Source: Gemmatimonadaceae bacterium (GTDB taxonomy: Bacteria; Gemmatimonadota; Gemmatimonadetes; Gemmatimonadales; Gemmatimonadaceae). Taken from it: a stretch of DNA of 64,000 bases. The stretch lies in the NCBI GenBank assembly GCA_020851455.1, contig JADZCT010000037.1, positions 62,001 through 126,000 on the forward strand, written 5' to 3'. Made by a program: the position numbers and the translations under genes. Below are positions 3,873 to 6,565 of this stretch, in pieces. Position 1 is the stretch's first letter; each line of letters begins with the position of its first letter. Below the pieces are notes generated by a model. That model was not told the origin of the DNA, did not search any database, and was given only the letters and a program-made list of their open reading frames with translations.

Positions 3873-4466
3873 ATGATGCCAGGCGTTCCCGGATCCCTCC
3901 AGCGCCCGTGGATGTTGCTGCTGGCCGCGGCGGCGATCACCGCGCCTGCAGCCCTGCGGCCGCAGGCGCACGCAGGCGCCCAGGGCCCTGCTGTGGGCGA
4001 CGCGGCGCCCGGTTTCGCCCTTCCCGGGAGCACCAGGGACGGCAAACTCCCCAAGCCCGTTCACCTCTCGGATTTCAAGGGCCAGGTGGTGGTGCTCGCT
4101 TTCTTCCCGAAAGCGCGCACCGGTGGCTGAACTGCCCAGATGAACGCGTACCGTGACCAGTACGCGCAGACATTCAGCGGCGGCAGGGGCGTGACGATCC
4201 TCGCGATCAGCGCGGACCCGGATACTACTCAGGCCAACTGGGCACGCGAGGCGGGCTACCCGATGACGTTCGTGAGCGACACGGCGAAGGTGGCGGGCCG
4301 CGCGTACGCGGTGCTTCCCGCCGGCGGCTCCGTGTTCCAGAGGGTCGTCTTCGTCGTCGGAAAGGACGGTCGCGTCGCGCACGTGATGCGGCCATTCCGC
4401 GAACTCGTCCAGGACTCGTACGACGAACTCGCCGATGCGGTAAGGAAGGCGGCTGGCGCCAGGTAG
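3873..4466 (+). CDS. Secreted AhpC/TSA-type peroxiredoxin, probable selenoprotein (in-frame UGA at the peroxidatic position)
   Basis: Two open segments in one frame are separated only by TGA at 4,128-4,130. Read through, they give a 197-residue thioredoxin-fold peroxiredoxin: AVGDAAPGFALPGS, LSDFKGQVVVLAFFPKARTGG-U-TAQM, ILAISADPDTTQANWAREAG, FVSDTAKVAGRAYAV. The TGA falls exactly on the catalytic residue of the PxxxTxxC signature (P-K-A-R-T-G-G-U), residue 86. No cysteine remains in the mature protein, so it would be a 1-Sec enzyme. ATG 3,873 (or 3,876) gives a signal peptide ending near AHAGA, implying export. Peroxiredoxins are an established bacterial selenoprotein family. The alternative is a nonsense mutation of TGC, which would have to fall precisely on the catalytic codon and upstream of a SECIS-like hairpin. 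No sel gene lies in the window. Confidence 0.8.
4145..4166 (+). promoter_or_regulatory. Candidate bacterial SECIS hairpin
   Basis: A perfect 7-bp stem (CGCGTAC at 4,145-4,151 with GTACGCG at 4,160-4,166) encloses the 8-nt loop CGTGACCA. It begins 15 nt after the in-frame TGA, and the loop starts 22 nt after it. The known bacterial SECIS pattern is a hairpin just downstream of UGA, with an apical loop roughly 16-37 nt away and a G among its first two loop bases. All three conditions hold. It would recruit SelB with Sec-tRNA. It is a small hairpin in GC-rich coding DNA, so it could be fortuitous taken alone. Confidence 0.6.
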
Positions 4467-4532: not shown

Positions 4533-5444
4533 ATGACCCAGCGCGCTTCTGTCATGGTCGGGCTCGTGCAGGACGGCGTCGGGGCCGATCCGATCCGGAC
4601 ACTCGCGGCCACCGTCGTGCGGATCCGCGAGGCGGCGTCCGCCGGCGCACAGGTCATCTGCCTGAAGGAGCTCTTCAACTCGCCCTACTTCTGTAAGGCG
4701 CTCCGGCAGACGTACTTCGACTACGCCGAACCGATCCCCGGCCCAACCACCGAGTCGCTCCGCGCGCTCGCCGCCGAGCTCGAAGTCGTGCTCGTGATCC
4801 CCGTCTACGAGCGCGAAGCGCCCGGCGTATACCGAAACTCGGCGGTCGTGATTGACGCCGACGGCCGGCAGCTCGGCACGTACCGCAAGATGCACATCCC
4901 GCACGACCCGCTCTACGAGGAGAAGTATTACTTTGCCCCGGGCGACGCACTGCCCGCCGCCGACGGCGTCGCTGGCGGATTCAAGGCGTGGCGCACGCGG
5001 TACGGCACGATCGGCGTGCTCATATGCTGGGACCAGTGGTATCCCGAAGCGGCGCGAATCACCGCCCTGCTGGGCGCCGATATTCTCCTGTACCCCACGG
5101 CCATCGGCTGGCACCCCAAGGAGAAGGACGAGTGGGGCGCATCGCAAGTTGACGCGTGGCAGACCGCCCAGCGTGCCCATGCAATCGCGAACGGCGTGTT
5201 CGTAGCGGCCGTGAATCGCGTTGGCTTCGAGCCGGAGCCGGGGACGGATGGAATCGAGTTCTTTGGCCATTCGTTCGTTGCCGATCCGTTCGGGCGCATC
5301 GTCGTCGAGGGCGGAACGGAGCCGGCCGTACTGCTGGCCGCGTGCAACCTGGGCCTCGTGGAAGAGGCGCGGCGCAACTGGCCGTTCCTGCGCGACCGCC
5401 GCATTGACGCCTACGCGCCAATTCTGAACCGGTGGATCGGGTGA
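4533..5444 (+). CDS. aguB: N-carbamoylputrescine amidase
   Basis: A nitrilase-superfamily enzyme of 303 residues that hydrolyses N-carbamoylputrescine to putrescine, CO2 and ammonia. The catalytic triad is visible: Glu46 (CLKELF), Lys119 (YRKMHIPHDP) and Cys165 (VLICWDQWYPEAAR). Family signatures LYPTAIGWHPKEKDEWG and FFGHSFVADPFG are characteristic of AguB rather than generic nitrilases. Length is normal for the family. Its stop overlaps the GTG start of the agmatine deiminase by 4 nt, so the two consecutive steps of the agmatine route are translationally coupled. The product is cytosolic. Confidence 0.95.
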   Translation: MTQRASVMVGLVQDGVGADPIRTLAATVVRIREAASAGAQVICLKELFNSPYFCKALRQTYFDYAEPIPGPTTESLRALAAELEVVLVIPVYEREAPGVYRNSAVVIDADGRQLGTYRKMHIPHDPLYEEKYYFAPGDALPAADGVAGGFKAWRTRYGTIGVLICWDQWYPEAARITALLGADILLYPTAIGWHPKEKDEWGASQVDAWQTAQRAHAIANGVFVAAVNRVGFEPEPGTDGIEFFGHSFVADPFGRIVVEGGTEPAVLLAACNLGLVEEARRNWPFLRDRRIDAYAPILNRWIG

Positions 5445-6565
5445 GCCCGCGGCCGGCGAAGCCGGGCCGGAAGCGACGCGGCGCATCGCGCGCCGCCATC
5501 GCGCCACAGCATCCCGTCGGCGCCGTAAGATGGCCCGCCGAATGGGAGCCCCACGACGCCACATGGATCGCCTGGCCACACCACGAGCCGGACTGGCCGG
5601 GGAAGTTCGGGCCCATTCCGTGGGTCTACGCCGAGATCGCAAGGGTTCTCTCGCGGCATGAACGCGTGGAGATTCTCTGCCAGTCAACGTCCGTGCGCTC
5701 CCAGGCCCGCCGCATCCTGGACGCGCACGGCGTCCCGCGCCGGCGGACACGGCTCCATCGGTGCCCCACCGACCGCGTCTGGTTGCGCGACTCGGCGCCC
5801 ACCGGCATCCACGACGCCACCGGAGCGGTGCAATGGGTGGATTGGGGATTCACCGGGTGGGCCAAGTACCGGAACCACTCGCGCGATGCCAGGGTCGGCG
5901 CATTCGTCGCGCGCGCCTCCGGCCTCGGCCGCCGGACCCCGCTGCGCCACGACACCGGGAGCCACGCCGTGCTCGAAGGCGGCGGAATCGAGACCGATGG
6001 CCGCGGCACCATGCTCGTCACCGAGGAGTGGCTGCTCTCGCGGAAGCAGGTGCGAAACCGTGGCTTCGGGCGTGACGACTACGAGCGGCTGTTCGCGGCG
6101 CACCTCGGGATCCGCAGGACCATCTGGCTCGGCGAGGGGTGCGTTGGCGATGACACGCACGGGCACATTGACGACATCGCGCGCTTCGCCGCCCCGGGCC
6201 TCGTGCTGCTCGCGCACGAGCGCGACACGGCCGACCCGAACCACCGGCGGTCCGTCGAGAACCTGCGTCGTCTCCGTCTCGCCCGCGACGCGCACGGCCA
6301 CGGACTCGCGATCTGGACGCTGCCGTTCCCGCGTGCGGTCACCATGAATGGCCAGAGGCTCCCTGCTAGCTACGCGAACTTCTACGTCGCCAACGGTGTC
6401 GTGATAGTCCCGACCTTCAACGACCCCGCCGACCGTGAAGCGCTCGAGACGATCGCCCGGGCCTTCCCGCGACGCGAGGTGGTTGGAATCCATGCCGTTG
6501 ACCTCGTCTGGGGCCTCGGCACTCTGCACTGCCTTACCCAGCAGCAGCCGGCGGCCCGCCGGTGA
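5441..6565 (+). CDS. aguA: Agmatine deiminase
   Basis: A Porphyromonas-type peptidyl-arginine deiminase superfamily member of 374 residues, converting agmatine to N-carbamoylputrescine and ammonia. Motifs: [22 protein letters not shown] near the N-terminus, [28 protein letters not shown], and the C-terminal catalytic cysteine in [17 protein letters not shown] 5,441 gives a GTGA overlap with aguB; a GTG at 5,432 is also possible. The Arg/Lys-rich first ~20 residues are extra to the domain. With aguB it forms the bacterial agmatine-to-putrescine pathway. No arginine decarboxylase is in the window. Confidence 0.94.

Follow-up and report, generated by a model that had tools for sequence, protein, structure and literature searches.

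The gene at positions 3873-4466 of the window, the whole 64,000-nucleotide stretch of DNA that was analysed, almost certainly encodes a selenoprotein, with an in-frame UGA predicted to be read as selenocysteine (Sec). Taken as a whole and leaving its reductant aside, the reading of this gene as a selenoprotein peroxiredoxin is very probable, and much of the phylum Gemmatimonadota appears to read UGA as Sec in such a peroxiredoxin. If this is true, a common environmental phylum employs selenium in peroxide defence outside the cytoplasm. Gene callers that treat TGA as a stop would break the gene in two or truncate it in Gemmatimonadota genomes. All features of the window described here lie on the plus strand.

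The gene product and its known relatives

Translation of 3873-4466 gave 197 residues, of which residue 86 has the single non-standard codon, TGA at 4128-4130; the frame closes with TAG at 4464-4466, and the ATG at 3876 is another possible start. The residues around the TGA read FFPKARTGG-U-TAQM, which places U86 at the peroxidatic position (P79-x3-T83-xx-U86). This bears out the original prediction that the sole in-frame stop is a TGA on the catalytic residue. The Pfam AhpC-TSA profile spans the TGA (residues 41-170, E 2.3e-26, 92.6 bits against a cut-off of 26) and the Redoxin profile also matches across it, and these matches, together with the homologues, agree with the claim that domain and homology run past the TGA to a peroxiredoxin end. 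The active-site set of peroxiredoxins is present as Pro79 (4107-4109), Thr83 (4119-4121), U86 and Arg157 (4341-4343), the last by position the active-site arginine; Thr83, position 86 and Arg157 are invariant in our homologue alignment (A1). A further expectation, that no other Cys follows the signal peptide, held for the whole frame, which contains no Cys even in the signal region. As a resolving Cys is absent, the protein would be a one-Sec enzyme that needs an outside reductant. The window's genome holds eight AhpC-TSA matches, and a TGA falls inside this one only. Promoter and terminator scans of the region returned no match.

The nearest folds were those of Bcp4 (Z 23.4) and the 1-Cys enzyme AhpE (Z 23.2). 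Bcp4 of Sulfolobus solfataricus (3hjp), also the top match by sequence (E 1.7e-14), differs in being an archaeal Cys enzyme and is not known to carry a signal peptide. AhpE of Mycobacterium tuberculosis (rmsd 1.6 over 147 residues) likewise has a single catalytic chalcogen residue and no resolving Cys, but it is a Cys enzyme without Sec, and identity is 27-29%. These comparisons bear on the question of whether the selenoprotein might be mainly a periplasmic thiol-disulfide or selenol redox partner and not a peroxidase. A peroxidase role is assigned here from family membership, and 31 of the 48 Sec relatives carry Phe or Tyr in place of the canonical motif proline, which the window protein retains; both points leave room for such a partner. 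However, the conservation of Thr83, residue 86 and Arg157, the lack of a CxxC or UxxC motif, and a fold nearest to AhpE and Bcp argue for a peroxidase, and we consider the redox-partner role improbable.

Sec-peroxiredoxins with a TxxU motif are an established family (PMC13188914, PMC9312934, PMC1088965), and a 2016 survey counted 91 Prx (TxxU) genes in 78 organisms (PMC5029168). A review of the prokaryotic selenoproteome includes Prx (TxxU) as a family and names neither Gemmatimonadota nor exported forms. PrxU of Eubacterium acidaminophilum (TxxU; NCBIfam NF040737) resembles the window protein in being a peroxiredoxin with Sec in a PxxxTxxU peroxidatic site and a bacterial SECIS. The window protein differs in its signal-peptide-like N-terminus, in its lack of Cys and in being found here in Gemmatimonadota only; it scored 42.3 bits against the NF040737 cut-off of 270, below the level of an equivalog. 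All 26 aligned members matched NF040737 weakly, and no NCBIfam model reached its cut-off for the window protein. A literature search combining selenoprotein or selenocysteine with Gemmatimonadetes, Gemmatimonadota or Gemmatimonas, which covered few subscription journals and no preprints, returned nothing on this gene. The enzyme kind and the use of UGA as Sec are already known; the exported, phylum-wide Sec-peroxiredoxin that is free of a resolving Cys appears to be undescribed.

The UGA codon, Sec machinery and a SECIS hairpin

The original prediction pointed out that no gene in the window makes Sec and that genome context was needed. All four of selA, selB, selC and selD indeed had matches in the genome that contains the window (2.96 Mb in 139 contigs, 97% complete, 4% contaminated). 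SelA (E 1e-137) and SelD (378 bits against a cut-off of 125) were found, SelB was recognised from its C-terminal winged-helix domain, and next to selD lies a tRNA-Sec whose anticodon is tca. These genes are on contigs C76 and C14, and the window is on C92. The genome has a second UGA gene outside the window, for formate dehydrogenase alpha (FdhA), with the TGA at a canonical Sec site, CNRT*HAPSVV (L052:1729-1731, on contig C105 of the same genome, G000). FdhA and the window protein are unrelated enzymes; FdhA would be the second client of the Sec machinery.

We surveyed 249 genomes of the phylum, of which at least 139 are covered by the best matches listed. Among the matches listed, at least 124 genomes carry a TGA gene, and SelA was found in 117 of these 124. 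The other seven all have a tRNA-Sec above the cut-off, so SelA is probably missing from their assemblies. At least 15 genomes have open-frame genes only among the matches listed, and 2 of these 15 have SelA. The association of SelA with the TGA gene among these matches gave a Fisher p of 1e-11 with kinship left in. Genomes G113 and G146 each gave a second tRNA-Sec match above the cut-off, a weak one that may represent a different tRNA.

A homologue scan over 84,980 species genomes yielded 28 loci, 26 of which are labelled Gemmatimonadota or one of its lineages. The two remaining loci, L027 (on a contig labelled Terrabacteria ANGP1) and L030 (Acidobacteria gp6), carry genes near-identical to those of the Gemmatimonadota loci L028 and L033, which points to probable misbinning. 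Most of the genomes compared are metagenome assemblies. The codon at position 86 in the scan loci, tallied without restriction on codon, was mostly TGA, with TGC in both L021 genes, both L022 genes and the second L023 gene. From many Gemmatimonadota assemblies we also collected 48 distinct Sec (TGA) and 26 distinct Cys sequences, using a search motif that allowed no codon at this position other than TGA or one for Cys. In all 26 Cys members the Cys at position 86 is the sole Cys in the compared core. The alignment of homologues for Cys or Sec that had been proposed as a check thus came out as predicted, with relatives carrying TGA or a Cys codon there, and neither TAA nor TAG was seen at this position among the homologues.

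Downstream of the UGA, a hairpin at 4145-4166 has the form of a bacterial SECIS element, with helix 4145-4151/4160-4166 and loop 4152-4159 (CGUGACCA). It has a 7 bp stem and an 8-nt loop and starts 14 nt past the UGA, with 21 nt from UGA to loop. The published bSECIS model specifies a loop of 3-9 nt, a stem of 4-16 bp, a G in the first two loop positions, a spacing of 16-37 nt and an MFE of at most -7.5 kcal/mol (PMC13188914), and the window hairpin lies within it on every count (8 nt, 7 bp, G at loop position 2, 21 nt, -9.4 kcal/mol). Loop positions 2 and 3 are G and then U. The fold of the short hairpin (-9.4 kcal/mol) had a z of -2.7, and a 66-nt fold of the region was no better than shuffles (z -0.83); the signal comes from the short hairpin and how well it is conserved rather than from long-range structure. 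Rfam gave no match at the hairpin region.

The inner six pairs are held in 47-48 of the 48 Sec genes, and 47 of the 48 have the loop CGUGAYCA. The outer pair, formed by two third codon positions, is C-G in 17 Sec genes, U-A in 19, G-C in 9 and A-U in 1, and is unpaired in 2, so that 46 of 48 are paired, versus just 5 of the 26 Cys genes. Similarly, every one of the 48 Sec genes uses CGT as the Arg codon in the loop, against 2 of the 26 Cys genes, whose loop is loosened. In controls on 40 distinct Sec rows, none of 500 shuffles attained the paired fraction or the covariation score, and slid versions failed. As the inner pairs never or hardly vary, the covariation rests on one base pair together with the contrast with the Cys genes. 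Judged from these alignments, synonymous-site constraint at the hairpin is present only where the codon is UGA.

These data bear on three other accounts of the TGA. The first is that it is a true stop, either in a pseudogene or between two proteins, the second of which would start anew at ATG 4140. A mechanically called ORF does begin there, and the 111 stop-free codons after the TGA, taken alone, fit chance (p ~0.23 in DNA of such G+C-rich composition). Nevertheless, the frame is more than chance because homology extends on either side of the TGA and because many independently assembled genomes have TGA at this very codon. TGA at exactly that codon in many species, at ~45-72% protein identity and with both halves conserved, the lack of TAA or TAG there, and a hairpin held at synonymous sites in TGA genes only make a true stop very unlikely. 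Less probable again is readthrough of the UGA with an amino acid other than Sec, either Trp or one set by a reassigned code: the alternative in homologues is Cys and not Trp, the full Sec machinery and a UGA-containing FdhA gene are present, and the hairpin is conserved and conforms to the bacterial SECIS model. Finally, a sequencing or assembly error in which TGC was read as TGA, a concern of the original prediction for which the TGC at position 86 of close Cys homologues could speak, is excluded in practice because the same TGA recurs with the covarying hairpin in dozens of independent assemblies, accompanied by the Sec machinery.

For the UGA as a Sec codon, the machinery and the covarying hairpin suggest a mechanism in which SelB with Sec-tRNA(UCA) would bind the hairpin at 4145-4166 and the UGA at 4128-4130 would be decoded as Sec. 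As in the peroxiredoxin family, Sec86, with Thr83 and Arg157, would then attack peroxide to give a selenenic acid.

Sec/Cys exchange and the motif proline

With the active-site columns left out of the tree, 10 changes between Sec and Cys were required, at least 6 of them on well supported branches. Several genomes of the window's genus (L098-L103), and also locus L023, have a Cys copy beside a Sec copy. Tandem copies of the same type also occur, with two Sec genes in L020 and two Cys genes each in L021 and L022.

The replacement of the motif proline by Phe or Tyr in 31 of the 48 Sec members (e.g. L025:5115-5117) was found in none of the 26 Cys members. Three Cys members are nested in the aromatic Sec clade, and all three have Pro. 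Across 6 independent pairs, 2-3 changed in the same direction and none in the opposite one, too few for significance. The link between Sec and the aromatic-for-proline change is therefore suggestive. A tentative reading, which we would put somewhat below even, is that of an exported, phylum-wide one-Sec peroxiredoxin whose Sec has relaxed the requirement for an otherwise near-universal motif proline. If it is true, the family, with its repeated Sec/Cys switching and its tandems, would lend itself to asking why an extracytoplasmic peroxidase retains Sec. Sec and Cys can be compared directly across the many naturally occurring exchanges, in some cases with both forms adjacent in a single genome, and across the linked change between proline and aromatic residues. 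Neither Sec/Cys tandem pairs nor Phe or Tyr for the motif Pro in Sec members only was described in the literature searched.

Probable export and a possible reductant

A probable signal peptide spans 3873-3974 (residues 1-34), as judged from a hydrophobic run, low pLDDT and an A-x-A/AQ end seen by eye, with putative cleavage after AHA. Hydropathy showed a hydrophobic stretch near the N-terminus, within the first 35 residues, in all 26 aligned members, and in most of them an A-x-A/AQ end follows it by eye. In the structure model, pLDDT was 55-68 in the N-terminal region versus 81-98 elsewhere. The chain would thus be exported by way of this signal peptide, and a periplasmic or secreted location for the peroxiredoxin is likely, with a confidence only a little below that in the peroxiredoxin reading itself.

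Re-reduction of the selenenic acid would fall to an outside thiol, for which the likeliest source may be an exported TlpA-type thioredoxin fed by a membrane protein of the CcdA/DsbD type. A gene for a TlpA-like thioredoxin (WATWCP.C or WAIWCENC) is found downstream, on the opposite strand, at 12 of the 28 loci, and in 7 of those 12 it is accompanied by a recognisable CcdA/DsbD transmembrane protein (DsbD_TM); L027/L028 and L030/L033 are near duplicates. The ccdA-tlpA genes of these relatives are convergent with the peroxiredoxin gene and do not form one operon with it, and in the window's genome the pair is on another contig, unlinked to the peroxiredoxin gene. TlpA/CcdA is put forward as the likeliest donor because the pair adjoins the gene in many relatives and occurs in the window's own genome; as the actual reductant, this route is possible but falls short of an even chance.

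Immediately downstream in the window are genes for a carbon-nitrogen hydrolase (N-carbamoylputrescine amidase-like, 4533-5444) and a member of the agmatine deiminase family (PAD_porph, 5432-6565). We weighed both as possible functional partners and decided against this, as they are polyamine synthesis genes and are retained downstream in the nearest relatives only. Among the relatives, the N-termini encoded at L041:1463-1540 and L042:1028-1110 end in ...ACGG and ...ACAGG, respectively; these ends are lipobox-like, and the two proteins may be lipoproteins.
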